34,409 nt of DNA from Chelativorans xinjiangensis (lineage in GTDB: Bacteria > Pseudomonadota > Alphaproteobacteria > Rhizobiales > Rhizobiaceae). The position numbers and the translations under genes were made by a program. The notes under the pieces are model-generated. The model was not told where the DNA came from and did no database searches. It saw nothing but the letters and a program-made list of their open reading frames with translations. Shown in pieces: positions 4,562-22,612 of the stretch. Position 1 is the stretch's first letter. Each line of letters begins with the position of its first letter. The DNA lies in contig NZ_WQNH01000048.1 in NCBI RefSeq assembly GCF_009812055.1, positions 1 through 34,409 on the forward strand, given 5' to 3'.

Positions 4562-5217
4562 CTACGAGCCCAGGGCCATTGAGCGCAGGCGATGCGCGAG
4601 ATGATCGATTGCCAGTGTGGCGCTCGGGGTGAGCGTATTGGACCGGTGAAGACGGATTTCGGCGCCCGGCAGCGGCGGCACATACTGGCCGGCGGGGACG
4701 CTTCGTAGGCCAGGCGCAAGCATGCGGCCTTTGACGACGGTCACCGCCAGGCCGTGCTCAACAATTGCCTCCACGGCAGCAAGACTCGGGCTGATATAGG
4801 CCAATCGCCACGGCCGGCCTGCCCCATTGAGCGCCCGAACCGCCCAAGCGCGAAACAAGCAGTCGGGATTCGACAAGGCGACAGGTAGAGGTTCAAGTTC
4901 CTCCACAGCCTGACCGGCCGCTGCTGCCCAAATCACCCTTTTCGCGGCATATCAACTCGCCCTCGATCGCACCCTCCGGATGCATGGCGATGACCGCATC
5001 GAACGTTAGGCCAAGCTTCTTCAAGAGCCGAGAGGTGAGGCCGATCTCCATCTCGATCTGCACGAGAGGAAATCGTTCAGCGACATCGGCAAGAAGGCGC
5101 GGCAGGACCCTGGTGCCGTAGTCCTCCATGACGCCGATGCGAATGCGTCCGGCGACCTTCTGGTTGGAAAGGCGCGCAATTGCTTGCTCGCTGAAAGCGA
5201 GAATGCGACGTGCGTCT
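4562..5217 (-). pseudogene. LysR-type regulator remnant, no DNA-binding domain, frameshifted
   Basis: The minus strand encodes the effector-binding half of a LysR-type transcriptional regulator. A linker (ARRILAFSEQAIARLSNQ) leads into GRIRIGVMEDYGTRVLPRLL and a periplasmic-binding-like domain. Near 4940 a run of G residues appears to carry one extra base: reading up to CREK and then shifting to VIWAAAAGQAVEEL restores the family sequence through to a normal C-terminus at 4562. Upstream of about 5217 the frame meets a stop and the similarity ends. The winged helix-turn-helix (about 60-90 residues) is therefore missing, replaced by an integrase fragment on the other strand. The gene is dead through both truncation and frameshift. 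Its former target is not inferable. Confidence 0.8.
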
Positions 5218-5352
5218 ATCAGAACTTATGGCCGACGCTCGAGCAAGTTTGCTCGCATGGCTCGATCGGCGTGGCGGAACAATCGACGATTATGCCTTTC
5301 CGAGTAGGATCGATCATTCGGCGCATTTGAGCACAAGGCAGTATGCTCACTT
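5218..5352 (+). pseudogene. Tyrosine recombinase (integrase) fragment
   Basis: About 45 codons match, by recollection, the catalytic domain of phage-type tyrosine recombinases of the kind common in rhizobia: a LLAWLDRRGGTIDDYAFPSR segment then HLSTRQYAHL, which normally precedes the HSLRR catalytic box. Everything after QYAHL is replaced by an unrelated deacylase sequence in the same frame, so the catalytic residues are absent. The reading frame can be opened from the ATG at 5210. It begins where the LysR remnant breaks off, so one recombination event probably joined three unrelated genes here. Confidence 0.65.
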
Positions 5353-5881
5353 AGCCGGCATGGATGTGCCCGAGGTCAAGGCGATGGTGGATCTCTATCC
5401 CGTCGGCCAGATTTTCGACAACCATGTATATCCCGGCGTCCTGCACAACGCGTTCATGGACGTTGGCATCCCGTCCTTTACCCCGAAGATCGGCGCTGCG
5501 CGCGTGCTAGACCTTGAGATGATCTCGCTGTTTGTGGAAGGCACGATGAACGTCCTCAAGCATCATGGCATCGTTTCCGGGCCGATGGGGCGCACGGGCA
5601 AGGACGTGCGCGTATTCGTCGGCAACAGTGCGTTTCCGATCCTCGCCACCGTGGGCGGCATTGTCGAGCATCTTGTCAAGCTCAACGACAAGGTCGAAGC
5701 CGGACAAAAGGTGGCCGTTCAGCGCAATAGCCTCGGCGAAGTGGTTGCGGAGTACACAAGCGGCGTGGCCGGAGAAATAACGGGTCAGCGCAGCGATGCA
5801 ATGTCCGAGCCTGGCAATCCCTTGGTGTTTATCCTTTTCAATAGGCCGACGCCATCGGGCGTTGAAACCTATCCCGAGTAG
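5353..5881 (+). pseudogene. C-terminal piece of a succinylglutamate desuccinylase/aspartoacylase-like protein
   Basis: The remaining 175 or so codons of the chimeric frame resemble the C-terminal part of the M14-like succinylglutamate desuccinylase/aspartoacylase family. The stretch LHNAFMDVGIPSFTPKIG is followed by a beta-hairpin, barrel-like tail (GGIVEHLVKLNDKVEAGQKVAVQ and later GVAGEI). The N-terminal zinc-binding part (HxxE...H) is missing, so the product could not be catalytic. The junction with the integrase fragment lies at about 5350-5358 and keeps the frame open, giving a 223-codon chimera that automated annotation would probably call a single gene. Whether it is expressed is unknown. 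Confidence 0.7.
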
Positions 5882-6394
5882 GTCACCTGTACGTGCGATC
5901 TTCTAGAAAGAATCGTATAGCGAAGTGAACGTTTGCAGCCGTCCTCGGGCGAACTTGACCGCATCCATTGAAAGCAAAGTCGATGCGGCGCCGTGGTGTG
6001 ATCGAAGGGTGGCGTTTCGTTGAGTTGCCCACGTTGGTCGGTGCGGAATGTCTGCCTTAGCTCTAGCGAGCCAACGTCACGTCAGAGTCGGCTTCGAGAC
6101 GTTCCCGCCGCCGAGGCAATGACTGGATCGGGCTCGGTTCGCGACCTCAATCCCAGAAGGCTGAACGTCAGCAATCGCCGTTGCGAACCCGGAAGCTGCC
6201 AGTCTGCTGACGGCCCCCCAAACTCCCAATAGCGCAAACGGCTGTGCATGGAGGGAAGCGGCCGTTTCCTCCGTCGCTACGAGATGTCTGCCTTGCTGAC
6301 GAAGCCCTTCACCTGGCTTGCGCGAATGTCTGCTATCGCTCGGTGGTTTTCCAAGCGGTCAGTTAGCCGGGACTCAAGAGGCGATCAGATTGCG
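5882..6394. other. Intergenic, no gene seen
   Basis: About 510 bases without a supportable gene. It carries a dispersed-repeat copy at 6191-6222. I could not find a promoter or RNA gene. Confidence 0.5.
6191..6222 (+). repeat. Dispersed intergenic repeat, copy 3
   Basis: The copy reads GGAAGCTGCCAGTCTGCT followed by GACGGCCCCCCAAAC, closely matching copy 2 at 4462 at both ends. Confidence 0.5.
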
Positions 6395-6700: not shown

Positions 6701-6827
6701 CGAGCACCCCCTCTACATAGTCGATCTTCGGTCGATGAAACCCCATCGCGGCCCAGGCCCCGATCAGGCGGCTGGAGCTGGCTCTTTTGGGTGCTGTCGC
6801 AGACGTAGAAACGGTATAAGAATTCAT
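6687..6827 (-). CDS. Possible 46-residue protein coupled to the kinase gene
   Basis: A short frame starts with an ATG that overlaps the kinase stop codon (ATGA at 6827-6824), the same 4-bp coupling used elsewhere in this window. It ends 14 bp inside the DUF6958-like gene. The peptide has a polar N-terminus, a basic middle (KRASSSRLIGAWAAMGFHRP) and an acidic end. I do not recognise it. It could be a real micro-protein. It could also be the tail of an older gene left after a deletion, because the kinase C-terminus upstream looks extended beyond the usual end. Confidence 0.3.
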   Translation of the reverse strand: MNSYTVSTSATAPKRASSSRLIGAWAAMGFHRPKIDYVEGVLDVRD

Positions 6828-8155
6828 GGATGATGACGCCAAAGGCCCGACGGAGTGGTGGGGGATTTCGTGTTCATCGCAGAGACGAAGCGATCGAAAA
6901 CCGCGTCCGAGCCGACTTGACCGCCCTTGAGCATCAGGCGCATGCCATCCCTCTGCGGCATGTCCGAAGCCGCCACGCAGATCGCCACGCCTGCGTCCAG
7001 CTGTTCCTCGAACGCAAGGCTGCGGAAACCGAGCCGCCGGACGATGATGCTCGACGTGTCGCCGCCGGCCACGCCCAGAGCACACACCGTTTGTCGATCA
7101 AGGATGGCGGCGACCAGGTTCGCCAGTTTGCATGACAGCTCGGCTCCACTGCAGCGGTAATCCTCCGTGGGAGCGAGATGTGCCAGCACGTTTTCTCCGG
7201 CTGCGAGCGCCGCGGCGCAGCTTGCGGCGAACGCGCCGGCCGCGGTCTTATCCGCCAGGTGCCGAGGCTGTATCGGCATGGGCTTGAAGCGGCGTGCGGC
7301 TTTCACTTGGGCGGCTGTGACCTGTGACCGGCTGCCTGCCAGGACGAGGCACAGGCCCTCCGTCCTGCTGCCCTGCGCCGGGGCTGCCACCCCGGGCGGC
7401 CGGAGATCTCCGGAAAGCGCCTCGGCGACGCTGCTGGCACCAACGATCAGCAACGGGCGGCCGTCGCTGCCGCAGCCGCCCAGCGCGGCGCCTATCGTTT
7501 CGAGATGGCCCTGGTCACATGCATCGAACAACATGCGCTTCTTCCCCGCGCGCATGAGCTCGTCGACGTGTGTCTTGAGGGTCGCCCGGCGCTCCTCGAT
7601 CTCCGGCCACGCCAGGAGCAGCAGGTCCTGGAGGCCCTGCCTTGCAAGGTGGATGCGCAGGTCGGCCTCCGCCATCGGCGTGATCGGATGATTGCGCATG
7701 ACCGGGTGTCGGTCGATCCGGTGGATTTGGCCGTCCGGTCCGCTGGCAAAGAGATTACCGAACGCGCAGTAGCGTTCGAGGCTCGGCTGGCCGCCCATGA
7801 CGGCTACCAGCGCGGGATCGAGATGGCGCTCCAGGACCGCGACCGCGGCGCCGATGCTGCCCGTTTCGGGGCTGGAATCAAAGGTGGAGCAGACCTTGTA
7901 GTGAACGATGCGGGGGGACAGGGCCTTCAGCAGCGGCGCCAGCACGTCCATCTGCACGGCGATGGCCTCGGCCGGCAGCGCGCGGAACTCGGTGGCGAGG
8001 CCGACAGCGTCGAGTCCCTCTTCCGCGATCGCAGCCGCATCGGGCGGATCAAGGAACAGCCGAACACGGCGGCCGGCCCGGGCGAGCGTTGCCAGGGTGT
8101 CGGATGCGCCGGTGAAGTCGTCGCCGATGAAGATGTAGTCGACGCCCGCGCCCAC
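6824..8155 (-). CDS. DUF1537 four-carbon-acid-type sugar kinase (OiaK-like), module A
   Basis: The 443-residue protein belongs to the DUF1537 kinases, which phosphorylate sugar acids such as threonate, erythronate and 3-oxo-isoapionate with ATP. The N-terminal substrate domain starts with IFIGDDFTGASDTL (residues 8-21). A central signature IVHYKVCSTFDSSP and IDRHPVMRNHPITP is shared with the second kinase in this window. The C-terminal nucleotide-binding domain has AGGDTSS and LKGGQVG. The start lies only 2 bp after the RLP gene stop, so the two are surely co-translated. The last 15 or so residues (NTKSPTTPSGLWRHHP) look like an extension beyond the family end. By analogy with OiaK it should phosphorylate a branched or oxo sugar acid to feed the RLP. 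The exact substrate is not known. Confidence 0.85.
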   Translation of the reverse strand: MGAGVDYIFIGDDFTGASDTLATLARAGRRVRLFLDPPDAAAIAEEGLDAVGLATEFRALPAEAIAVQMDVLAPLLKALSPRIVHYKVCSTFDSSPETGSIGAAVAVLERHLDPALVAVMGGQPSLERYCAFGNLFASGPDGQIHRIDRHPVMRNHPITPMAEADLRIHLARQGLQDLLLLAWPEIEERRATLKTHVDELMRAGKKRMLFDACDQGHLETIGAALGGCGSDGRPLLIVGASSVAEALSGDLRPPGVAAPAQGSRTEGLCLVLAGSRSQVTAAQVKAARRFKPMPIQPRHLADKTAAGAFAASCAAALAAGENVLAHLAPTEDYRCSGAELSCKLANLVAAILDRQTVCALGVAGGDTSSIIVRRLGFRSLAFEEQLDAGVAICVAASDMPQRDGMRLMLKGGQVGSDAVFDRFVSAMNTKSPTTPSGLWRHHP

Positions 8156-8157
8156 CG

Positions 8158-9432
8158 TCAGCCTCCGAAGAAGCTCAGCGCGGCGCGCAGCTCAGGCAGG
8201 CGCTCGGCCGCCTTTTCGAGCGGTGTTCCCGATGCCACGGCCTCATAGGCCTGGCGAAGGCTGCTGACGCCGGCGGCCGGCCCGCCCGGGTGAGCGAGGA
8301 TCCCGCCGCCCGCCAGGAACATGAAGTCGGCCGAGCCCACGGCATCGTGCGTGAGGGGCAGCGTGCCCGCCCACTGGCCGGAGGAAAAGACGGGCAGCAC
8401 CGCATCCGCATCGTCCGCCGCATCGACGGCAAGCGGCCGCAGGCAGCGGCGGGCGGCAGAGGCCACCTCCTCCGCGGAATCGGAAAACTTGCCTCCGATG
8501 CCGTGGACATGCATGTGATCGACGCCCGTGAGGCGATAAAGCGCCTGATAGGCGTCGAAGCCGATGCCGAGCGAAGGGTGACGCGAGAAGGCGCCGAAAC
8601 CGTTTCTATGGCCGTGGAGGGCAAGCGGCGTGGAGCGCCGGAGCGTCTGGAGGGCTGCAAGGCCGCACCAGTTGAGGCTCGCCATGATGCAGGAACCGCC
8701 TTCCCCTTCCACCATCGCGGCGTGGCGGCGCATGGCATCGGTCTCGTCGGTGATGTTGAAGGCCACCATGACGTCGCGGCCGGTCGCCTGGCGATAGGCG
8801 CGGACCCGCCGCATCACCGCCGGCACCCGCTCGGCGAGCGGCGCATGATCCGGATCGGCACAAACCTCGTCATCCTTGATGAAGTCGACCCCCGCCTCGC
8901 AAAGCAGGCCTACGAGATCCGCGATCTCCGACGCGGCCATGCCGACATTGGGCTTGATAATCGTGCCGAAGAGCGGCCGGTCACCGATGCCGAGACGGCG
9001 GCGCGTTCCCGAAACGCCGAGAGGCGGGCGCTCGAAGCGGTCGCGATAGGTCTGCGGGAGCGCAATATCCACCAGACGCAGGCCAGTAACCTCGCCAAGA
9101 TCATAGAGATTACCTGCCGCCGTCGCGGCCAGGGTGGGCAGGTTGGCGCCTATATTGGCGAGCGGAAAGGCGATTTTCACGCTTGCCCGCCGGCATGGGC
9201 CGGCGGCGCCCTTGCGCTGCAGATAGGCACTTGCGAGGCTGGGCGCGGCCGCGGGTTCCAGTTCCTCCACGGACAGGACCTCGGCCGCGGCGCGCTCGCG
9301 CAGCGCATCCGTCTCGCCCGCCACGCGGACGAAAGTTCCGCTGCTCTGCTCGCCGGCCATGATCGCCGCCACCTTCTCAGGCTCGAGCGGAGTCTCGATC
9401 ACGTAGTGCGCTTCCAGGGTCCCGGCCTTCAT
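8158..9432 (-). CDS. RuBisCO-like protein (form IV, OiaX/OiaC-related), module A
   Basis: A 424-residue RuBisCO large-subunit homologue. Landmark residues, in RuBisCO order, are E28 and T33 (GEQSSGTF), N108, K160 (GTIIKP), the metal-binding K186-D187-D188-E189 (FIKDDE), H275-R276 (HGHRNG), loop-6 K315 (GGKF), S350-S351 (FSSGQ) and glycines 375-378. The position equal to RuBisCO K177 is Asn162, so CO2 fixation on RuBP is unlikely. The metal site and phosphate site look intact. Related proteins decarboxylate or hydrolyse 3-oxo-isoapionate 4-phosphate. It is roughly half identical by eye to the second RLP in the window but differs in loop 6 (HGIGGKF against NGLSNKF), so the substrate or the outcome may differ. 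It sits between the VOC gene (7-bp gap) and the kinase gene. Confidence 0.85.
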   Translation of the reverse strand: MKAGTLEAHYVIETPLEPEKVAAIMAGEQSSGTFVRVAGETDALRERAAAEVLSVEELEPAAAPSLASAYLQRKGAAGPCRRASVKIAFPLANIGANLPTLAATAAGNLYDLGEVTGLRLVDIALPQTYRDRFERPPLGVSGTRRRLGIGDRPLFGTIIKPNVGMAASEIADLVGLLCEAGVDFIKDDEVCADPDHAPLAERVPAVMRRVRAYRQATGRDVMVAFNITDETDAMRRHAAMVEGEGGSCIMASLNWCGLAALQTLRRSTPLALHGHRNGFGAFSRHPSLGIGFDAYQALYRLTGVDHMHVHGIGGKFSDSAEEVASAARRCLRPLAVDAADDADAVLPVFSSGQWAGTLPLTHDAVGSADFMFLAGGGILAHPGGPAAGVSSLRQAYEAVASGTPLEKAAERLPELRAALSFFGG

Positions 9433-9439
9433 CAGCGCC

Positions 9440-9985
9440 TCACAAGGTGGAGAGGTCGGGGAACGGGCGGACCGGCTCCGCGCCGTCCCAGCCTTTGGAG
9501 GCCTCGCGGATCAGATCGAACAGCCGCCCCTTGGGCCCCACGACTTCGGAGAGTTCGATCACCGTGCCGGGATGGGCTTCCCGGTCGAAATAGACGAAGC
9601 GGCCATTGGCGCCGACCTTGCCGCTCATCTTCTGCCTGAAACCTTGCGCTTCCATGCGGGCGAGGTCGGCATCGTAGTCCTGCGTCCAATAGGCGACATG
9701 CTGCAGCCCCTTGTGGCCGGCACGCATGAAGTCGCGGTACATGGAGGGGGCGTCGTTGCGTGTCTGGATCAACTCGACCTGCATGGGGCCGCTGTTGGCC
9801 AGCGCGACGGAGTTGTGGACCTCGTACGGCTCGCCGTCATAGCGGTAGTCCTCGATCGGCACCCGGGGATTGTAGAACCAGGGGCCGACGCCCATGACGG
9901 AATGCCAATGGGCCATGGCGGCTTCGATGTCGTCGACCACGTAGCCAAGCTGGCGGATCGCGCCCAGAAATCTGCTCATATTCAA
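9440..9985 (-). CDS. VOC-superfamily (glyoxalase/epimerase-like) enzyme
   Basis: A 181-residue vicinal-oxygen-chelate protein with two beta-alpha-beta-beta-beta units: residues about 8-75 (IRQLGYVVDDIEAAMAHW to QVELIQT) and about 90-150 (LQHVAYWTQD to GTVIELSEVVG). The expected metal ligands fall at Q12, E71, H96 and E144. The first is Gln rather than the usual His. Family members isomerise, epimerise or cleave by stabilising an enediolate on a divalent metal. Its position between dctM (3-bp gap) and the RLP gene suggests that it acts on the imported acid before phosphorylation, for example by isomerising or epimerising an oxo acid. Published apionate routes do not, to my knowledge, use such an enzyme. 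The start could also be Met3. Confidence 0.8.
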   Translation of the reverse strand: MNMSRFLGAIRQLGYVVDDIEAAMAHWHSVMGVGPWFYNPRVPIEDYRYDGEPYEVHNSVALANSGPMQVELIQTRNDAPSMYRDFMRAGHKGLQHVAYWTQDYDADLARMEAQGFRQKMSGKVGANGRFVYFDREAHPGTVIELSEVVGPKGRLFDLIREASKGWDGAEPVRPFPDLSTL

Positions 9986-9988
9986 ACC

Positions 9989-11266
9989 CTATTGCACGAA
10001 AAGTCTCGGGAGCCAGGTCGAGACCGCGGGAACCGCGGAGACGACCAGCAGCGAAAGAAGGAGAGGTATCAGGAAAGGCAGCACGCCCCGGATCACCGCA
10101 TGCACCGGCATCTTGGCGACGATCGACACCATGTAGAGGCTCATGCCGATGGGCGGGGTCAGAAGTCCGATCATCAGGTTGAGCACGAAGACGATGCCGA
10201 GCTGGAGGGGGTCGACCCCTGCCGCATGGAGGGCGGGGGCGACGATCGGCGCGATGATGAGGATGGCAGCGATGGATTCCAGCACCATGCCGACGACGAG
10301 CAGAAGAAGGTTGACGAGCAGGAGCAGGATGAAGGGATCATCCGACAGGCCGAGCAGGAAGGCGCCGGCCTTCGCCGGCACGCGGTCGAGGGTGAGCACC
10401 CACGCGAAAACGGCGGCAGTAGACACGATGAAGAGAATGCTGGCGGTGGCCTCCACCGTCTCGCGCAGGCTCTCCCAGACGGCGCCCAGCGTCAGCGTGC
10501 GGTAGACCGCAAAGCCGATCAGCAGCGCGTAGGCAACGGTGACGCCGGCGACCTCGGTCGGGCCGAACCAGCCGCTGAGAAGCCCGCCGATGAGAAGCAC
10601 CGGCGTAAGCAGCGCCGGGAAGGAGACCAGCGCCTTCTTCGCCACCGCGCGCAGGGAGGGGCTGACCACATCCCGTGGCAGGTCGTAGACTCGGGCGATG
10701 ATGGCGACCTGGAGCATCAGGAAGAGCGTGATGAGAAGTGCCGGAACGATGCCGGCGATCAGGAGCTGCACGGCCGAGACGTTGGCCACGCTGGCATAGA
10801 TAATGATGGGTATCGAGGGCGGGAAGATCGGCCCGATGGTTGCGGCGGCGATGGTGATGCCGGCAGCGAAGTTCTTGCGATAGCCCTGGCCGGTCATCTG
10901 GTCGATCTGGATTTTGCCCAGCGCACCGATGTCGGCGAGGGCGGCGCCCGAGACGCCGGAGAAAATGAGGCTGACGAGAATCGAGACCTGGGCCACCGCG
11001 CCGCGGATGCGGCCGACGAGAAGGCGCACGAGATCGAAGATGTGCGTCGTGACGCCCATCGCATTGAGGAGGCTTGCGGCGAGAATGAACAATGGGACGG
11101 CAAGCAGCGGGGTAGAATCCAGCGCGTTGACGGCGCGCTGCGCCAGTACGTTTACGGGAAGCCCGTAAGTGACGATCACGATCGCGGAGGAAAGCCCCAG
11201 CGAGACGGCAACCGGTGCGCCGAGCGCGAGGGTCGCGGCGAAGATGAGAATGAGGACGAGGCTCAT
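9989..11266 (-). CDS. TRAP transporter large membrane subunit (DctM family)
   Basis: The 425-residue polytopic protein is the sodium-coupled transport subunit of a TRAP importer, with about 12 hydrophobic segments along its whole length. Typical sequences include LFILAASLLNAMGV, a GAALADIGALGKI segment, AAATIGPIFPPSIPIIIYAS and NLMIGLLTPPIGMSLYM. I placed the start at 11266, where ATG overlaps the dctQ stop (ATGA). A longer frame exists upstream, but its Arg/Pro-rich translation is just the shadow of dctQ. It is followed after 3 bp by the VOC gene, which ties import directly to metabolism. TRAP systems usually import organic or sugar acids. The substrate here is inferred to be a sugar acid used by the RLP-kinase pair. 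Confidence 0.9.
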   Translation of the reverse strand: MSLVLILIFAATLALGAPVAVSLGLSSAIVIVTYGLPVNVLAQRAVNALDSTPLLAVPLFILAASLLNAMGVTTHIFDLVRLLVGRIRGAVAQVSILVSLIFSGVSGAALADIGALGKIQIDQMTGQGYRKNFAAGITIAAATIGPIFPPSIPIIIYASVANVSAVQLLIAGIVPALLITLFLMLQVAIIARVYDLPRDVVSPSLRAVAKKALVSFPALLTPVLLIGGLLSGWFGPTEVAGVTVAYALLIGFAVYRTLTLGAVWESLRETVEATASILFIVSTAAVFAWVLTLDRVPAKAGAFLLGLSDDPFILLLLVNLLLLVVGMVLESIAAILIIAPIVAPALHAAGVDPLQLGIVFVLNLMIGLLTPPIGMSLYMVSIVAKMPVHAVIRGVLPFLIPLLLSLLVVSAVPAVSTWLPRLFVQ

Positions 11267-11808
11267 GACGCCCGACGGCCCTCCGGCGCGGAATCGGTCG
11301 CCAGGAAAAGGCCGGCAAGGCGGACAGCAGCAACCAAGAAAAGGAGCACGAAGCCGGCGAGCGCGGGCGCGTAGAAGAGCCAGTTCGACATGCCGAGGGC
11401 GGGCGTGGAGAACTTGCCGGCGCGGGAGAGGAAAGACTGGAAGCCGTAAAGCGTGAGCAGGCAGAAGACGAGGATGGCGGCTTCGACCAGCGCAAGCGCG
11501 TAGAGCCTGAGACGCGGCTGCAGCATCGTCGGCACGAGATCGACTGCGACATGTTGGCCGCGCAGGGCCAGGAGCGGCGCGCAAAGGAAGACGAGCGCGA
11601 TGCCGCTGAAGCGCGCCAGCTCGTCCGCCCACGGCATGCCGAGATCGAAGGCATTTCGGCCCACCACCTGACCGACGATGAGCAGGGCCATCAGGGCGAG
11701 AAGGAGGATTGCCGCGGACCGGCAGGCCAGCGAGACCGTTTCCAACACCTTGCCTGCCGCCCTGACGGCGGAGCCGATCTGCATGGCTCTGCTCCTGGTC
11801 CGCGACAT
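11263..11808 (-). CDS. TRAP transporter small membrane subunit (DctQ family)
   Basis: A 181-residue protein with four membrane segments, as expected for DctQ: about 32-50 (AAILLLALMALLIVGQVV), 68-88, 105-122 and 145-168. The RNAFDLGMPWADELARF stretch between the first two segments is the family hallmark. It bridges the binding protein and the large subunit. It lies 19 bp after dctP and overlaps dctM by 4 bp, so stoichiometric expression is likely. Confidence 0.9.
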   Translation of the reverse strand: MSRTRSRAMQIGSAVRAAGKVLETVSLACRSAAILLLALMALLIVGQVVGRNAFDLGMPWADELARFSGIALVFLCAPLLALRGQHVAVDLVPTMLQPRLRLYALALVEAAILVFCLLTLYGFQSFLSRAGKFSTPALGMSNWLFYAPALAGFVLLFLVAAVRLAGLFLATDSAPEGRRAS

Positions 11809-11827
11809 CCGAAGCTCCTAACAGCCT

Positions 11828-12862
11828 CTAGCTGATCGCCATGATCTTCTCGTAGAGCGCGCCGTATTTCTCGCCGAAGCGCTCCTCGACGAGCTTCTCG
11901 ACCGAGGCGCGGAAGGCATCGACCTTGAGCCCGTCTTCAGGACCGATCACGGTCATGCCCAGCTCGCGCAGGGCTTGCGTGTCCTTTTCCTCATTGTCCT
12001 GAATGGCCTTGGTGGCGCGGTCGCGGATTTCCGCGGCGGCCTCGGTGACGGCTTCCTTGTGCGCGTCGGACAAGCCCTGCCAGGCATCCTCGTTCATGAC
12101 GACGACCTCGGCGTTGGACATGTGCCCCGTCAGCATCAGGTGAGACTGCACCTCGTAGAGCTTGACGTTGAGGATGACGTTCACCGGATTTTCCTGCCCG
12201 GCGACCACCCCGGTCGCGAGCGCGGTCGGCACCTCCGACCAGTCGACCGGAATAGCGGCCGCCCCCATGCCCTCCACCGCGGTCGTGTAGATCGGGAAGG
12301 GAACGGCGCGGATCTTCTCGCCGGCGAGATCGGCCGGCGAATAGACCGCCTTGTTGGCAGTCAGGTTCCGGCGGCCGAAATAATGCGCGTAGATGACGCG
12401 CACATTGGCCGCCTCGATCAGGCCCTGGTTCAACTCCTGCATGACCGGGGAATTGACGTCCATCACCTTCATGAGGTGGTCGATGTCGCGGTAGAGATAG
12501 GGCGTGTCGAGGGCGGCAAAGGGCTCATAGAGAGAGCCGATGCCGCCGGCCGTGTTGTGGGAGAAGGCGATGGTGCCGAGCGATACGGCCTCGGCAAGCT
12601 CCTGAAGCTTGCCCAATTGCGAGGACGGGAAGACCTCGATGGCAAGGTCCCCGCCGGAGTGCTTGGCCACCGCTTCGGCAAACCAGTCGGCCTGCGCGCC
12701 GGCGACGCTGGCGGGCTCGTTGTTGTGGCCGTAGCGCAGCGTCACCGATTGCGCGCGCGACCGGCCGGGAAGCATGGCGGCCGCACTCGCGCCCAGGCCG
12801 AGCGCAAGGGCGTTGCGGCGGCTGATGCGGCGGGCGCCAAACTGCATCGAATTCCTGTTCAT
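11828..12862 (-). CDS. TRAP transporter substrate-binding protein (DctP family), module A
   Basis: The 344-residue periplasmic receptor of the TRAP importer, and the first gene of its operon. The start at 12862 follows a GGAGG site by a good distance. A start 28 codons upstream at 12946 is unlikely. The N-terminus looks like a twin-arginine signal (ISRRNALALGLGASAAAML, cleaved about residue 38), which is common for rhizobial binding proteins. The mature protein shows DctP patterns such as LRYGHNNEP, WFAEAVAKHSGGDLAIEVFPSSQLG and a central FGRRNLTANK with the carboxylate-binding Arg region (KIRAVPFPI). It probably binds a sugar acid for the downstream VOC, RLP and kinase enzymes. It differs strongly from the orphan DctP at 1358. 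Confidence 0.88.
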   Translation of the reverse strand: MNRNSMQFGARRISRRNALALGLGASAAAMLPGRSRAQSVTLRYGHNNEPASVAGAQADWFAEAVAKHSGGDLAIEVFPSSQLGKLQELAEAVSLGTIAFSHNTAGGIGSLYEPFAALDTPYLYRDIDHLMKVMDVNSPVMQELNQGLIEAANVRVIYAHYFGRRNLTANKAVYSPADLAGEKIRAVPFPIYTTAVEGMGAAAIPVDWSEVPTALATGVVAGQENPVNVILNVKLYEVQSHLMLTGHMSNAEVVVMNEDAWQGLSDAHKEAVTEAAAEIRDRATKAIQDNEEKDTQALRELGMTVIGPEDGLKVDAFRASVEKLVEERFGEKYGALYEKIMAIS

Positions 12863-12947
12863 CGGGTCCTCCCATGACATGTTCTGACGGGCCATAGACA
12901 GCGCCTTCGTATGCTCTCCTCCGGAGACACTGCCTACTTGACACAAG

Positions 12948-12960
12948 GCTAGGAACTAGC
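12948..12960. promoter_or_regulatory. Candidate LacI-type operator between dctP and the LacI gene
   Basis: GCTAG-GAA-CTAGC is a perfect 5-3-5 inverted repeat in the 167-bp divergent region. It lies inside plausible promoters on both strands: TTGACA at 12938-12943 with a weak -10 at 12961 on plus, and TTGACC with TAGCCT 17 bp away on minus. That is where a LacI-family protein could repress both directions. Confidence 0.45.
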
Positions 12961-13029
12961 ATGCTTCAGGTCAAACCAGAAAAATTGAGGTTTTTTTAGG
13001 TGTCATCAGTTCGAGGAGACGGTCTACCG

Positions 13030-14106
13030 ATGCCGCTCATGACCGACATTGCGGAGGCCGCAGAAGTCTCGCTCGCGACGGTCGACCGGGTGCTCAACCG
13101 GCGCAAGGGCGTGAAGGCCCGCACCGTCGAGCGCGTGCTCAAGGCGGCGCTCGAACTCGGCTATCTGAGCGAAGCCGAGCATGCGCAACTCATCCACCCG
13201 CGCCCGCCGAATGTCGCCTTTCTGCTCCCCATGGGCGGCAACCCCTATCTCCGGCTGCTCGGCGACAAGGTTCGCGCCGTCGCCCAGTCGAAGTCGCGCG
13301 ACGAGGCGCAGGTGCGCTGCTACTTTATCGAGAGCTTCGATGCCGGCGCGCTCGCCGCGGCCATCCGCCACCATGCCGGCTGGGCGGACGGTATCGCCTT
13401 CCTGGCCATCGACCATCCGCTCGTGCGCGAGGCAGTGGAGGAGGTCTCCGCCGCCGGGCGGCGCATCGTGACCATCGTCTCCGACCTGCAGCATTCGCTG
13501 CGCGACGCCTATGTGGGGCTCGACAACCAGGCGGCCGGGCGCACCGCCGGATATCTGCTCGGCCGCTTCTGCCGCGCGCGAGAAGGCAGCGTCGCCCTGG
13601 TGGCGGGAAGCCGCAACTACCGCGCCCACGCGGAGCGGGAGATGGGGTTCCTCGGTCTTCTGGAGGAGATGCATCCCGGCCTGCGCGTGGTCGGCATGCG
13701 CGAGGGCCACGACGACCGCGAGGAGAACTACCGTCACGCGCTCTCGCTCCTGGAGCAGAACGCCGATCTTGTCGGCATCTACAATGTCGGCGGCTCCTCC
13801 GACGGGATCGGACGCGCGCTGCGGGAGCACGGCAGATCCGGTGAGGTGGTCTTCATCGGCCACGGGTTGACGGCCGACACCCGCAGGCTTCTCATCGAAG
13901 GCACCATGGACGCGGTGATCAACTCGGACCCTGATGTGCTGCTCACTTCCGCACTGCACGTCTTCGGCAGCCTCCAGCGTGACCATGCCTCTAACCCAAC
14001 AGTGCTTCCGCCGGTCAAGATGGATCTTTTCTTCCGCGAGAACATTCCCTCCGTCCTGTCCGTCGCCGGCGGAACCGCAATGCGTCGAGGCCGGCGCGCC
14101 CCCTGA
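13030..14106 (+). CDS. LacI-family regulator of the TRAP/RLP/kinase operon
   Basis: About 358 residues with an N-terminal LacI helix-turn-helix (MTDIAEAAEVSLATVDRVLNRRKGV, about residues 4-28) and hinge region, then a periplasmic-binding-protein-like sensor domain (NVAFLLPMGGNPYLRLL, GLDNQAAGRTAGYLLGRF, VGIYNVGGSSDGIGRAL, FIGHGLTADTRRLL). Such regulators release DNA, or bind it, on meeting a sugar or sugar derivative. The VDRVLNRRKGV recognition pattern and LacI/RbsB-type sensor suggest a sugar-like inducer. I chose the ATG at 13030, which follows a GAGGAGA site. A GTG start at 13000 is possible. The gene is divergent from dctP with a palindrome between them, so it is the likely local regulator of module A. 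Confidence 0.85.
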   Translation: MPLMTDIAEAAEVSLATVDRVLNRRKGVKARTVERVLKAALELGYLSEAEHAQLIHPRPPNVAFLLPMGGNPYLRLLGDKVRAVAQSKSRDEAQVRCYFIESFDAGALAAAIRHHAGWADGIAFLAIDHPLVREAVEEVSAAGRRIVTIVSDLQHSLRDAYVGLDNQAAGRTAGYLLGRFCRAREGSVALVAGSRNYRAHAEREMGFLGLLEEMHPGLRVVGMREGHDDREENYRHALSLLEQNADLVGIYNVGGSSDGIGRALREHGRSGEVVFIGHGLTADTRRLLIEGTMDAVINSDPDVLLTSALHVFGSLQRDHASNPTVLPPVKMDLFFRENIPSVLSVAGGTAMRRGRRAP

Positions 14107-14471
14107 GGGTTTGTCAACTCGGGACGCCAAGATCAGCAGCAAACGTCTCGCTGCTGCCACACGAAAAACCTTCAAGAATGAAGGAATTTTGATGCGCCTG
14201 CCATGAGCTTGGGAGCGTCGCAGAAAGGCTGAGGTCCAGAGGGTCAGCGAGTCAAATACAGTGTCCGCTTGCAGAAGCCGGACCCCAAAAGCTACCCGTC
14301 CGCTCGCGGTCCCGAAAATGCCTTGGCCGCTTTGATGTAACCAGGCAATTCAAAGCCGGGAAATATCCGCTTGATCGCACCTGATCGCACCTAATCGTAC
14401 ATAGGGCACTTCGATTTCCTGACATTCGGCACCATTCTTGTTCGGTCTGTCGAAACAGCGGAGCAGCGCCG
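14107..14471. other. Intergenic, no gene seen
   Basis: Apart from a degenerate dispersed-repeat copy (14285-14320) and a short direct repeat of gatcgcacct near 14372-14395, nothing can be assigned. It separates module A from the traG scrap. Confidence 0.5.
14285..14320 (+). repeat. Dispersed intergenic repeat, degenerate copy 4
   Basis: The copy reads AAAAGCTACCCGTCCGCT then CGCGGTCCCGAAAATG. It resembles copies 2 and 3 but is more diverged. Confidence 0.35.
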
Positions 14472-19062: not shown

Positions 19063-19887
19063 TCAGGTGATGCGCCTGATGCTCTCCACGATCTCCTCAG
19101 GTTCGAAGACCTTGATCCAGTCGTCGCGCATGAGGCGCGGCTTGCCGTTTTCGATGGCCTTGTTGCAGGCGTCCGAGAACTGGCCGTCCGTCTCCTCCAT
19201 GATGACCGAACCCAGCACATTCATGTGGCCAAGCAGGAAGTCGCGCGCGGCCTCGCGGTCGACGCCGCGGCGCACCACCTCCTCCATGGCCTCTTTCATC
19301 ACCACGAGTAGTGTGGCGCAGACCGTCTCCGAAAGCCCGGGCTCAAGCAGCGCCATCTGCTCGACGGTGGCGCGGTGCGAACGCAGGATCGGCTGGAAGA
19401 TCGTTTTGGCGATCTCCTCGCCGACGGCGAAATGCTCTTCCGGCCCCTGCATCAGCGCGGAGACGATCGCCTGGGCGGCCGCCACGCCACCGAAATAGTC
19501 CTTCTTGGCGGCCATATCGGTCTCGTCGTTGAAGATCGGCGGATGACAGGGATGGGTCACGAAATAGGTGATGTCCTCGCGCGGCGGGAGGTGGCCCGCG
19601 AAGGGCGCGGCGGCATCGAGGATGATGACGACGGTGCCGCTGTCGAGCTTCTCGACGATCTGCCGGCTGACTGCGCGGATGGCGGTGTCCGGCACCGCGA
19701 GGATTACGGCACCGGCTCCGGAAAGCGCCTCATCGAGAGGCATGCAGTCGAAGCCCGTCGCCTCCTTCAGCCGGGCCTGGCCGGCTTCGGAGACCTCGAC
19801 CGGGGCGACGGCAAAGCGCGAGCCCTTCAGGTTGGTGGCAAGCCGAACGCCCATTTTCCCGCCAGCGCCAATGAGTGCGATCTTCAT
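19063..19887 (-). CDS. apnO: D-apionate oxidoisomerase
   Basis: The 274-residue protein opens with the NAD(P) Rossmann motif KIALIGAGGKMGVRLA and continues with ILAVPDTAIRAV. A middle part THPCHPPIFNDETD and a helical C-terminal half (EQMALLEPGLSETVCATLLVVMKEAMEE) are what I associate with ApnO, which oxidises D-apionate and moves the carbon skeleton to give 3-oxo-isoapionate. I set the start at 19887, after GGAGG. The upstream frame to 19935 adds 16 unlikely residues. It leads the operon with the CUT2 transporter and is divergent from oiaX-oiaK, with an inverted repeat between them. The assignment relies on remembered family features plus the surrounding pathway genes. Confidence 0.85.
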   Translation of the reverse strand: MKIALIGAGGKMGVRLATNLKGSRFAVAPVEVSEAGQARLKEATGFDCMPLDEALSGAGAVILAVPDTAIRAVSRQIVEKLDSGTVVIILDAAAPFAGHLPPREDITYFVTHPCHPPIFNDETDMAAKKDYFGGVAAAQAIVSALMQGPEEHFAVGEEIAKTIFQPILRSHRATVEQMALLEPGLSETVCATLLVVMKEAMEEVVRRGVDREAARDFLLGHMNVLGSVIMEETDGQFSDACNKAIENGKPRLMRDDWIKVFEPEEIVESIRRIT

Positions 19888-19911
19888 GCAGTGATCCTCC
19901 CATCGCCGAAG

Positions 19912-19940
19912 AATGTTGCAGGTCATTATCATCATGTCAA
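19912..19940 (-). promoter_or_regulatory. Predicted promoter of the apnO-transporter operon
   Basis: On the minus strand TTGACA (19940-19935) lies 17 bp from AACATT (19917-19912). The -35 is a perfect consensus and the -10 is weak. The -35 overlaps the inverted repeat at 19937-19957, so a bound regulator would block RNA polymerase. The leader before the apnO ATG would be only about 20 nt. Confidence 0.5.
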
Positions 19941-19957: not shown

Positions 19958-20027
19958 TCAGCATATCAAGCTGCGTTAGCTTCGGGTGACCGTGGCGGCA
20001 TGGAGCCGCGCGGAGGGAGATGGATCA

Positions 20028-21287
20028 GTGACGGAGCGCCTTTACGCGGAGTACGAGCTCGAAAGTCCGCTGCCGCTGGAGAAAGCGGCGGCCGTGATCG
20101 CGGGGGAGCAGTCCTCCGGTACCTTCGTGAAGCTGCCCGGCGAGACGGAGGGGCTGCTCGCCGCTTCAGGCGCGCGCATCGAGCACATAGAGGAGACCGG
20201 CGCCAGCTCCGCCCCGTCCCTGCCCTGCAGGATACGTAGCGAACGCTACGCGCGCGGGCGCATCCGCATCTCCTGGCCACTGTCGAATATGGGGCCGTCG
20301 CTCACCAACACGCTCGCAACGGTCGCGGGCAATCTCTTCGAGCTGGCCGAGGTCTCGGCCCTGCGGCTCCTGGACATCGAGTTCCCGGGCGCTTTCCGGC
20401 ACGCCTGTCCGGGGCCGGCCTTCGGGACAGAGGGCACGCGCCGCCTCGCCGGCGTTGAGCACGGACCGCTGATCGGGACAATCGTGAAGCCCAGCGTCGG
20501 GCTCTCCCCCGCCGAGACCGCGGAGCTGGCGCTCAAGCTCGCCGAGGGCGGCATCGACTTCATCAAGGACGACGAGCTTCAGGCCAACGGCCCGCACTGC
20601 CCGCTTTCCGAACGCGTGAAGCACGTCATGGCGGCGCTCAACCGCCAGGCCGACAAGACCGGAAAGAAGGTCATGTACGCCTTCAACATCACGAGCGACG
20701 AGATCGACGAGATGAAGCGCAATGCCGATCTCGTGCTTGCCCATGGCGGCACCTGCCTGATGGTCAGCATCCATTCTGTCGGGCTTGCGGGGCTCACCGC
20801 GGTGCGCCGCCATGCGCAATTGCCGTTGCATTGCCACCGCAACGGGTGGGGCCTGTTCTCGCGCTCGCCCGACATCGGCATCAGCTACCGTGCTTGGCAG
20901 AAATTCTGGCGACTGGCCGGCGCCGACCACCTGCACGTCAACGGGCTTTCCAACAAGTTCAGCGAGCCGGACGACTCCGTCATCGATTCCGCAGATGCCG
21001 TCGCCGAACCGCTCTTCGACGAAGCCTCCTATGCGGCCATGCCCGTCTTCTCCTCGGGGCAGACCGCGGCGCAGGCGGGCGCCACCTACCAGGCCCTCGG
21101 CACCACCGATCTCATCTACTGCGCCGGCGGCGGCATCATGGGCCATCCCAGCGGTGTGGCCGACGGCGTGGCGAGCCTGCGCCAGGCATGGGAGGCCGCA
21201 CTTGCCGGCGCGAGCCTCGGCGACTACGCCAAGGACCACCCGCCGCTCGCGGCCGCCCTCGAAGCCTTCGGAGCACGGATGAAGTGA
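20028..21287 (+). CDS. oiaX: RuBisCO-like protein, 3-oxo-isoapionate-4-phosphate transcarboxylase/hydrolase
   Basis: A 419-residue form IV RuBisCO homologue. RuBisCO landmarks are present: GEQSSGTF (E27, T32), N102, K154 (GTIVKP), K180-D181-D182-E183 (FIKDDE), H270-R271, K310 and S342-S343, with Ser156 at the RuBisCO K177 position. In the apionate pathway, OiaX converts 3-oxo-isoapionate 4-phosphate to 3-phosphoglycerate and glycolate, while the related OiaC only decarboxylates it. I favour OiaX because no erythrulose-phosphate isomerase gene is in the cluster to use the OiaC product. The two cannot be told apart by eye. I chose the GTG at 20028 after GGAGGGAGA, which aligns with the start of the other RLP. 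A GTG at 19986 is also possible. It overlaps oiaK by 4 bp. Confidence 0.8.
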   Translation: MTERLYAEYELESPLPLEKAAAVIAGEQSSGTFVKLPGETEGLLAASGARIEHIEETGASSAPSLPCRIRSERYARGRIRISWPLSNMGPSLTNTLATVAGNLFELAEVSALRLLDIEFPGAFRHACPGPAFGTEGTRRLAGVEHGPLIGTIVKPSVGLSPAETAELALKLAEGGIDFIKDDELQANGPHCPLSERVKHVMAALNRQADKTGKKVMYAFNITSDEIDEMKRNADLVLAHGGTCLMVSIHSVGLAGLTAVRRHAQLPLHCHRNGWGLFSRSPDIGISYRAWQKFWRLAGADHLHVNGLSNKFSEPDDSVIDSADAVAEPLFDEASYAAMPVFSSGQTAAQAGATYQALGTTDLIYCAGGGIMGHPSGVADGVASLRQAWEAALAGASLGDYAKDHPPLAAALEAFGARMK

Positions 21288-22612
21288 CCGGCGACCTGCT
21301 CATCGCCTATTACGGCGACGACTTCACCGGCTCGACCGACGTGCTGGAGGCCCTCGCGGGAAACGGCATCGAAACCGTGCTGTTCACCGCCATTCCCGAT
21401 CAGGATCAACGCGACCGCTTTTCCCATTGCCGCGCCATCGGCCTTGCCGGCACGAGCCGCAGCCGGCCGCCGGAATGGATGGACCGCGAACTGCCCGTCG
21501 TCTTCGAGTGGCTCCGCTCGCTTCAGGCGCCCATCGTCCACTACAAGGTCTGCTCCACCTTTGACAGCGCGCCGCACAGGGGCTCCATCGGCCGGGCCAT
21601 CGAGATCGGCCTTGAGCGCTTGGGGCAGGACATCGCCCCGATCGTGGTCGGCGCGCCGGAGCTCGGCCGCTACACCGTCTTCGGGCATCTGTTCGCCGCC
21701 TTCGACGGCACCGTCTACCGTATCGATCGCCACCCGGTGATGAGCCGCCATCCGGCAACGCCAATGACCGAGGCCGACCTTCTCCTGCACCTCGCCCTGC
21801 AAACCGACCTGCCCATGGGTCGTATCGATCTGGCCGACCAACTGGCCGGGCGGGAGAAGGAGGTCTTCGAGACGTTCCGCGCGGCCGGCAAGCGAGCAGT
21901 TCTTATAGATGTCTGCGACCCTGCTTCGCAGGCGCACGCGGGCAAGGTTCTGGCTGAAACGCTCAGCCCCGCACGATCGCTCGTCTTCGGCTCTTCGGGC
22001 GTGGAATATGCGCTCCTGCCCGTCTGGCGCGCGAAGGGCCTCGTGACGGCACCGCTGCCCGCCCCTCCCCTCGAGCCCGTCGAACGGATGGCAGTGGTTT
22101 CGGGAAGCTGCTCGGCCGTGACCGAAGGGCAGATCCACACTGCACTGGCGCAGGGATTCACCGGCATCCGGCTCGACTATGCCGCGCTCGCCACCGACCG
22201 GGGCGCAGAAGCCGCCTTCGAGCGCACGCTTGAGGAAGGCCGCAGCGTGCTTGCCGCCGGCGGCAGCCCCATTCTCTACACTGCGCTCGGCCCGGCGGAC
22301 ATAGAAGCAGCGGACGCAGGCGCCGACGACCGTCTCGGCCGCGTGCTCGGCCGCCTCCTCAGCCGGCTGGCCGAGGAGGCCTCGCTTTCGCGGTTGGTTG
22401 TGGCCGGCGGCGACACGTCCAGCCATGCGCTGGAGGAACTGGATATCTATGCGCTCACATTACGCCATCCGATGCCCCAGTCGCCAGGCTCTCCAGTCTG
22501 CCTCGGCCACCGCGGCGTACGGGAGTCTGCTCCGGTGGAAATCGTGCTGAAGGGCGGACAGATCGGCAAGGCGGACTATTTCGTTCGGCTGCGCGACGGC
22601 GACCTCCAATGA
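21284..22612 (+). CDS. oiaK: 3-oxo-isoapionate kinase (DUF1537 family)
   Basis: The 442-residue kinase starts with GTG overlapping the oiaX stop (GTGA, 21284-21287). A longer open frame upstream is the shadow of oiaX. The N-terminal domain starts LLIAYYGDDFTGSTDVLEAL. The central IVHYKVCSTFDSAP and YRIDRHPVMSRHPATP match the module A kinase. The C-terminal ATP-binding domain has VVAGGDTSSHALEEL and LKGGQIGKADYF. In D-apiose degradation OiaK phosphorylates 3-oxo-isoapionate at O4, giving the substrate of OiaX. Co-translation with oiaX and the nearby apnO, apnL and apsD support that role over the threonate or erythronate kinases of the same family. It is followed after 76 bp by gntR, which has its own operator-like site. 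Confidence 0.85.
   Translation: MTGDLLIAYYGDDFTGSTDVLEALAGNGIETVLFTAIPDQDQRDRFSHCRAIGLAGTSRSRPPEWMDRELPVVFEWLRSLQAPIVHYKVCSTFDSAPHRGSIGRAIEIGLERLGQDIAPIVVGAPELGRYTVFGHLFAAFDGTVYRIDRHPVMSRHPATPMTEADLLLHLALQTDLPMGRIDLADQLAGREKEVFETFRAAGKRAVLIDVCDPASQAHAGKVLAETLSPARSLVFGSSGVEYALLPVWRAKGLVTAPLPAPPLEPVERMAVVSGSCSAVTEGQIHTALAQGFTGIRLDYAALATDRGAEAAFERTLEEGRSVLAAGGSPILYTALGPADIEAADAGADDRLGRVLGRLLSRLAEEASLSRLVVAGGDTSSHALEELDIYALTLRHPMPQSPGSPVCLGHRGVRESAPVEIVLKGGQIGKADYFVRLRDGDLQ

Follow-up and report, generated by a model that had tools for sequence, protein, structure and literature searches.

A conserved TRAP-VOC-RLP-kinase cassette in Chelativorans xinjiangensis and its possible role in the catabolism of a sugar-like acid

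RuBisCO-like proteins (RLPs) have, to our knowledge, few assigned reactions. According to Carter et al. in 2018, D-apiose is reportedly catabolised by ApnL, ApnO, OiaK, OiaX and an RLP of the transcarboxylase/hydrolase type, and we take OiaX to be the decarboxylating one of the two apiose RLPs, in line with the NF042437 model. Tetronate pathways that rely on DUF1537 proteins, with LtnD/DenD, OtnI, OtnK and OtnC, were reportedly described by Zhang et al. in 2016, and in these pathways oxidation, isomerisation, 4-phosphorylation and carbon loss follow in that order. Decarboxylation is given for one of the two apiose RLPs and transcarboxylation/hydrolysis for the other (PMC6302742), and the tetronate gene set is given as ltnD, denD, otnI, otnK and otnC (PMC10580937). 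Here, we analysed a stretch of 34,409 nucleotides of Chelativorans xinjiangensis (the whole of contig NZ_WQNH01000048.1; hereafter the window), which carries a cassette, module A, for a tripartite ATP-independent periplasmic (TRAP) importer, a vicinal oxygen chelate (VOC) enzyme, an RLP, a DUF1537 kinase and a LacI-family regulator, together with a second cluster, module B, of the apiose type.

The D-apiose pathways, in which an RLP and a DUF1537 kinase act on a branched sugar acid, share with the cassette this pair of enzymes and the pocket motif of the kinase, and module B is of such a type. The cassette differs from them in that ApnO and ApnL are absent and a VOC enzyme, a TRAP importer and LacI are present, and its RLP belongs to a clade of its own; neither the RLP nor the kinase comes near the respective OiaX and OiaK cut-offs. 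The tetronate pathways have the same step logic as that proposed below for the cassette, whereas OtnI and OtnC presumably belong to families other than VOC and RLP, and the cassette kinase falls below the OtnK cut-off. The parts come from known families; the combination of genes matches no pathway that we know of. An earlier note on this DNA, made from the sequence alone, had stated that its author knew of no published pathway with this gene set. This agrees with our searches of the openly searchable literature, in which no description of the cassette was found, but a mention may exist in key papers (Carter 2018, Zhang 2016 or Tabita 2007).

A gene cassette conserved as a unit

In the window, the cassette is transcribed on the minus strand in the order dctP-dctQ-dctM-VOC-RLP-kinase, and lacI diverges from dctP (Table 1). 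All genes that the earlier note had assigned to module A were confirmed by Pfam matches. The VOC gene replaces apnO, with the RLP and kinase genes downstream of it, and the TRAP and LacI genes are present as described; lacI falls just beyond the range that had been given for the module (6824..12862). The observation of a distinct TRAP-VOC-RLP-kinase module is confirmed, and the pathway that had been read from it is partly supported, as set out below.

Conservation was examined in 85 loci, namely the window, four loci from an earlier RLP search and the best 80 of 582 matches of an RLP scan of genome contigs. They represent 84 distinct loci, since L049 repeats L023 (L021, the same locus as L038, was not counted). 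The best 80 of the 582 matches come from Alpha-, Beta- and Gammaproteobacteria and a Desulfopila, and the closest named relative among them is Nitratireductor luteus, a contig of which aligns to positions 6772-14168 of the window with 94-95% identity and no further; its only other match in the window is short and weak and concerns the module B kinase. The VOC gene is directly upstream of the RLP gene and co-oriented with it in 84 of the 85 loci, with a median gap of 7 bases. This holds for all 80 genome-scan loci and, with the window set aside, for 83 of 84 loci. The exception, L025, is a decayed locus in a genome of the same genus (G001, around 9511-10845), where about 3.4 kb equivalent to window positions 8941-12368 is gone, which removes VOC, dctM, dctQ and parts of the RLP gene and dctP. 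The kinase gene is directly downstream of the RLP gene in 81 of the 85 loci and a divergent lacI is found in 82, and the other four and three loci, respectively, are short contigs. A search of genomes for this order without apnO had been proposed earlier; in the 85 loci, apnO or apnL was found near the cassette in a single one, the window, where they belong to module B. When flanking open reading frames (ORFs) were clustered, the most frequent further cluster occurred in 28 of the 85 loci and consists of various ABC ATPases.

The association was also seen in evenly drawn samples. Among 398 genomes of the phylum, an RLP of the cassette type (A-type, at least 60% identity) was found in 7, with the VOC gene adjoining in all 7, and an eighth close VOC (at least 72%) adjoins an RLP of the module B type (B-type); the Fisher p value for the VOC-RLP association is 3e-14 with relatedness ignored. 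Among 249 genomes of the order, an A-type RLP (at least 65%) was found in 10, each with the VOC gene within 50 bases, and 11 of the 14 close VOCs (at least 73%) lie beside an RLP, one of them B-type. Across the cassettes, the minimum identity to the window is 65% for VOC and 63% for the RLP, and that of the kinase goes down to 38%. That the cassette itself is a conserved, self-contained unit is virtually certain.

The neighbouring module B also encodes an apiosidase-like protein. Its RLP and kinase share 46% and 34% identity, respectively, with those of the cassette. The "about half identity" estimated by eye in the earlier note thus holds for the RLP pair, whereas the kinases are only one-third identical. 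These identities, together with the separate clades, rule out a recent duplication of module B as the origin of module A, in agreement with what had been stated earlier. A functional tie of the cassette to the adjacent apiose module is not supported either, given the single locus with apn genes and the N. luteus homology that ends at the cassette edges. Module B itself is an apiose cluster of the B-type and no true OiaX one, as its RLP (440 bits) and kinase (456 bits) do not reach the 700 bits required for OiaX and OiaK.

Table 1. Features of module A and module B in the window
Feature	Position	Strand	Remarks
DUF1537 (four-carbon acid sugar) kinase	6824..8155	-	443 aa; PF07005 5.6e-48, PF17042 8.4e-22
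RuBisCO-like protein (RLP), clade A	8158..9432	-	424 aa; PF00016 1.6e-62; PDB 3nwr E 2e-185
VOC (Glyoxalase_4) enzyme	9440..9985	-	181 aa; PF13669 1.3e-26; ATG start also at 9979
TRAP large permease DctM	9989..11266	-	PF06808 5e-108
TRAP small permease DctQ	11263..11808	-	PF04290
TRAP solute-binding protein DctP	11828..12862	-	PF03480; nearest PDB chains 4p9k, 4nq8, 4pdh, 4p47
Putative LacI operator copy 2, promoter/DctP-start interval	12875..12889	-	one mismatch to CNTCARAANNCNTCA; conserved in upstream alignment
Promoter-like block TTGACC-17-TAGCCT	12946..12974	-	conserved in upstream alignment
Putative LacI operator copy 1	12986..13000	-	one mismatch to CNTCARAANNCNTCA; upstream alignment
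LacI-family regulator, Peripla_BP_4 sensor domain	13000..14106	+	PF00356, PF13407; divergent from operon
Module B ApnO-like PGDH_C protein	19063-19935	-	
Module B RLP	19986-21287	+	NF042437 439.8 bits
Module B kinase	21284-22612	+	NF042436 455.6 bits
Module B ApnL	23415-25337	-	NF049900 921 bits, cut-off 750

Enzymes, import and regulation

The A-type RLPs form one clade with a support of 100 in a tree of 87 rows and of 100/100 in a tree of 17 rows. This clade, with the window RLP in it, is separate from the B-type clade, which includes module B, and from the clade of sequences above the OiaX cut-off. A long-branch warning applies to the larger tree and to the RLP tree on which changes were counted (see below), and the RLP fragment of L025 was excluded from the trees by a length limit. 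In the 17-row tree, the RLPs of two loci labelled B, L171 and L172, are placed next to A (95/78). For the comparison of residues, rows L032-L036 were grouped as OiaX and not as B, following the tree. RuBisCO numbering was used; the register was checked against RuBisCO 8dht from residue 84 onward, and E60 and T65 were placed by motif alone. The equivalents of E60, T65, N123, K175, K201, D203, E204, H294, R295, H327, K334 and S379 are retained in both the A and the B clade, except for one long-branch B row that departs at some of them. In the OiaX clade, four of these positions are occupied by other residues, namely D for E60, G for N123, Q for H327 and C or G for S379. In the window RLP, the sequence alignment places catalytic residues at K160, K186, D188, E189, H275, R276, H308, K315 and S350, and the carbamylated lysine, the Mg ligands and the general acid/base residues of RuBisCO appear to be retained. 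Since the residues for CO2 binding, hydration and cleavage are kept, the A-type RLP may perform a RuBisCO-like cleavage and not a plain decarboxylation; these residues should matter to a transcarboxylase/hydrolase and not to the OiaX decarboxylase.

At 12 positions chosen for a difference between A and B, the A-type RLPs are near-invariant (F or Y at 279), and the A-specific positions include W354, H310, G314, F279 and N162. The window RLP has a close relative in PDB 3nwr, "A rubisco-like protein", which we take to be from Burkholderia fungorum, so that the structure of an RLP of this type is available. The entry itself names no function, and neither a paper on 3nwr nor a function for the clade was found in the openly searchable literature.

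As for the kinase, the residues R146-x-D148-R149-H150-P151 and R128-(Y)-x-x-(F)-(G)-x-L-F/Y-A of an OiaK-like pocket are kept. The motifs RxDRHPxM and RYxxFGxLFA are common to the A, B, OiaX-linked and PdxA-linked kinases, and the one OtnK that was compared is without both and has LLSESG. The OiaK-like pocket therefore favours a 3-oxo-isoapionate-like substrate over 3-oxo-tetronate. The OtnK equivalog NF043035 gave 176.1 bits for the window kinase against a cut-off of 350, and the MtnW enolase model TIGR03332 gave 136 bits for the window RLP against 513.6. With the scores for OiaX and OiaK given below, membership in OiaX, OiaK, OtnK and MtnW was rejected in every case at the equivalog cut-off.

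The VOC enzyme, placed in its superfamily by the PF13669 match, has four putative metal-ligand positions, Q12, E71, H96 and E144, which do not vary among the 84 cassette copies or across the 55 rows of an alignment that combines 45 of these copies with 10 sequences from other loci. Matching positions are presumably the metal ligands of glyoxalase I and methylmalonyl-CoA epimerase. In profile alignments, the four residues align with Q-E-H-E in 3gm5 and with H-E-H-E in human methylmalonyl-CoA epimerase, which shows weak similarity to the VOC profile (E 4e-5). The cassette VOC would thus share family and metal-ligand positions with glyoxalase I and methylmalonyl-CoA epimerase; its neighbours imply no thiol or CoA chemistry. 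By analogy, the chemistry of the superfamily, proton transfer beside a metal-bound carbonyl, would be compatible with a ketol rearrangement or with the isomerisation of a 2-oxo to a 3-oxo acid. More distant VOC homologs, with 51-54% identity, were seen in genomes that belong to a single genus within the order (L208-L213), and a TctC-type binding protein is near the VOC homolog in all four of these loci that were checked.

The importer is a three-gene TRAP system at most loci, with a fused DctQM in Betaproteobacteria (L057, both Pfam domains). Besides the three subunits, the window has in DctP the residues R165, R185 and N225, which align with Arg152, Arg173 and Asn213 of 4P47, the carboxylate-binding residues of that protein (PMC11668362). 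The dedicated carboxylate importer of the earlier note is supported by these residues. The ligand could not be read from the nearest solved chains of solute-binding proteins (SBPs), the best of which matched with a profile E of ~2e-51 and none at 1e-60. A TRAP SBP was not seen in 7 of the 85 loci. L077 is truncated, L062 shows an ABC ATPase match only, and in L104, L111, L115, L116 and L117 an SBP_bac_3 protein of an amino-acid-type (PAAT) ABC importer replaces the TRAP SBP. On the RLP tree, this swap requires 5 changes, 3 of them forced. The TRAP acid importer thus holds for the window and most loci, and the five relatives with SBP_bac_3 show that it is not essential.

Upstream of the operon, the motif CNTCARAANNCNTCA occurs twice in tandem, 97-111 bases apart, and the two copies flank a conserved promoter-like block. 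Exact pairs, at distances of 97-110 bases, were found in 5 of the 10 genomes tested, on which the case for a putative LacI operator is based. The window has a one-mismatch pair, and this pair alone is not significant, as 25 of 100 shuffles reach 2 matches. Further exact single sites exist, 11 of them in the genome G120. The promoter-like block was missed by a consensus promoter scan, and no conserved palindromic operator was found in the 34 loci examined. In G120 and G155, where PdxA stands in the RLP's place, operator pairs are also present, which suggests that the same regulator and effector serve the RLP and PdxA variants. A dehydrogenase placed in the LacI regulon elsewhere in the window's own genome was considered and rejected, since the three exact operator-like sites are all single copies. 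One of the three, over the start of a short-chain dehydrogenase/reductase (SDR) gene (contig C34 of G000, L239), was taken as chance, this SDR being no close relative of that found in some cassettes.

Natural variants of the cassette

SDR orthologues (75-93% identity) lie between lacI and the SBP gene at L082, L092, L100, L107, L112 and L170. Five of these are among the 80 genome-scan loci, and the sixth is one of four A-type plasmid loci that were examined. To explain the distribution of SDR on the RLP tree, a minimum of 4 changes is needed, of which 3 are forced. With six loci only, SDR was rejected as a universal member of the cassette; its presence in them indicates that oxidation can precede the VOC step. 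The SDR-bearing cassette of L170 is on the Neorhizobium plasmid pNCHU2750c, which is typed as conjugative and has Fic and transposase genes near the cassette, and this cassette may be transferable between hosts.

Other loci differ in the enzymes around VOC. L214 has the order lacI-TRAP-VOC-RLP-kinase with an RLP that is inside the B clade and B-type at 12 of 12 positions, and with a module-B-like kinase; VOC can therefore take the place of ApnO before a B-type RLP. A second candidate variant of the pathway is seen at L203-L207 and L219. Here, TRAP and VOC are accompanied by a DeoR-type regulator, a DeoC/LacD aldolase, PdxA and an OiaK-like kinase. Three of these kinases were scanned and scored 451-474 bits, and no RLP was found in the stretch examined. 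The SBP of L219 is 78% identical to the window DctP. The place of the RLP is occupied there by the PdxA-family oxidative decarboxylases (e.g. D-threonate 4-phosphate dehydrogenase), which are unrelated to the RLP in family and mechanism and are paired with the DeoC aldolase. L221 has lacI-TRAP-VOC beside pdxA, with no adjacent kinase, and L218 has lacI-TRAP-VOC alone; both genomes hold an apiose cluster elsewhere (L236 and L235).

A further candidate acid pathway is represented by L029, L157, L171, L172 and L230, where a TRAP SBP, SDR, an RLP (B-type or sister to A) and a kinase occur with no VOC or ApnO next to the RLP. An alpha/beta hydrolase is present in two of these loci and pyruvate kinase or enolase in three (L157, L171 and L172, with pyk and/or eno within ~9 kb of the RLP). 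L172 has, in addition, otnK and otnC in its vicinity and an ApnO-like gene at a distance of ~6 kb. These genes of lower glycolysis hint at 3-phosphoglycerate as a product of the related RLPs.

A candidate pathway and its alternatives

We propose, with a probability of about 0.45 for the whole chain, that the cassette is catabolic, with VOC as a ketol isomerase and the A-type RLP as an enzyme of the transcarboxylase/hydrolase type. The TRAP system, or the PAAT-type ABC system in some relatives, would import one small sugar-like carboxylic acid, and LacI would sense this acid or an intermediate. Where needed, the ketone would first be made by an SDR, as found in the cassettes of six relatives, or by a dehydrogenase encoded elsewhere. 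VOC, as a metal-dependent isomerase, would then convert a ketonic acid to a beta-keto (3-oxo) acid resembling 3-oxo-isoapionate and would thereby perform, without NAD, the rearrangement half of the task that ApnO has in apiose clusters. The DUF1537 kinase would phosphorylate O4, and the RLP would apply RuBisCO-like chemistry to the phosphorylated beta-keto acid, most likely transcarboxylation with hydrolytic C-C cleavage, to give 3-phosphoglycerate and a small acid; with such products, no further dedicated enzyme would be needed. The import of a preformed oxidised acid, which the earlier note had suggested, is a reading of the missing linked dehydrogenase, and an SDR is linked in six relatives. 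The variants may share one logic, in which a beta-keto acid is made, O4 is phosphorylated and the carbon chain is broken. The beta-keto acid would be made by ApnO (oxidation and rearrangement), by SDR alone, by SDR with VOC or by VOC alone, and the chain would be broken by an A-type RLP, a B-type RLP, OiaX or PdxA. In a more specific form, which we regard as possible but doubtful, VOC would be a cofactor-free ketol isomerase (1,2-hydroxymethyl or equivalent shift) that feeds a third catabolic RLP clade running the reaction of RuBisCO, and the acid would possibly be larger branched or rearranged. We know of no ketol shift of the 1,2-hydroxymethyl type described for the VOC superfamily.

Several observations weigh against the proposed chain. 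The window RLP reached 392.9 bits with the OiaX equivalog NF042437 and the window kinase 228.3 bits with the OiaK equivalog NF042436, both against a cut-off of 700. Of the 12 positions chosen as clade-differing, 11 distinguish the A-type RLP from typical B and 10 distinguish it from the B-type RLP of the window, so the acid that it acts on may not be 3-oxo-isoapionate. Among the 14 close VOCs of the order sample, 3 (G242, G120 and G155) have no adjacent RLP. No dehydrogenase is linked in most cassette loci, and no close SDR was found in the window's own genome (none at E <= 1e-50). PAAT importers usually carry amino-acid-like ligands. Finally, the variant with PdxA and the DeoC aldolase would suit the C5 acid 3-oxo-isoapionate poorly, because its decarboxylated product would yield formaldehyde on aldol cleavage, and a larger branched acid would suit it better.

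The same genes could also serve a linear acid in a non-orthologous tetronate pathway, in which VOC would act like OtnI, the kinase would give a 3-oxo acid 4-phosphate and the RLP would decarboxylate it in the place of OtnC (to dihydroxyacetone phosphate if the acid is C4). There is a gene-for-gene parallel with the series of dehydrogenase, isomerase, kinase and decarboxylase, and two of the SBP matches, 4p47 and 4pfr, are part of a set in which pantoate or erythronate was co-crystallised with other members (PMC11668362). The ligands of two further matches, 4p9k and 4pdh, are presumably of the same kind. We nevertheless consider this route unlikely, as the kinase is far from the OtnK cut-off and has the OiaK-like motif without the LLSESG of the OtnK compared, the RLP keeps the residues lost by the OiaX decarboxylase clade, and C4 chemistry would leave the DeoC aldolase of the PdxA variant without a role. 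The retained equivalents of E60, N123, H327 and S379, unlike the residues of OiaX, also make it quite unlikely that VOC epimerises or isomerises a branched acid which the RLP then decarboxylates like OiaX, to CO2 and a ketose phosphate for housekeeping enzymes. The PdxA variant, with a decarboxylase-type enzyme and an aldolase in the place of the RLP, makes such a product chemically possible, but the RLP cassettes have no further conserved gene to take the ketose phosphate.

That the cassette is a redundant apiose branch, handling D-apionate or 3-oxo-isoapionate as module B does, finds some support in L214, where VOC is paired with a typical B-clade RLP, and in the apiose clusters elsewhere in the genomes of L218 and L221. 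It is decidedly unlikely in view of the rarity of apnO and apnL near the cassette, the near-invariance of the A-type RLP at residues that differ from B, and the fact that D-apionate is not oxidisable without a dehydrogenase. A non-catabolic role, in which VOC would detoxify or repair a metabolite and its clustering with the RLP and kinase would reflect shared regulation only, would suit the homologs of 51-54% identity near TctC-type proteins, where no RLP or kinase was found ~8 kb on either side. The tight, co-oriented VOC-RLP spacing and the presence of an importer and a substrate-sensing LacI inside the same cassette render it highly improbable. The catabolic chain with VOC as ketol isomerase is the reading that we favour.

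The cassette is minimal, with an importer, three enzymes and a regulator, and its parts have already been swapped in nature. Its assignment could yield a new pathway, a new VOC reaction, a new RLP reaction and an acid used by marine and soil bacteria. The label "ribulose-bisphosphate carboxylase large subunit family protein" on such genes could mislead surveys of carbon fixation.

Outside the two modules, the window encodes an orphan TRAP DctP-like protein at 1076-2449 on the plus strand, next to which no DctQM was seen within the window. Decayed genes lie at 4600-5900. One is a minus-strand, LysR-like remnant with a broken frame, recognised by eye, and another is a plus-strand ORF of 223 aa at 5210-5881 that covers the DoeB deacetylase model only in part.

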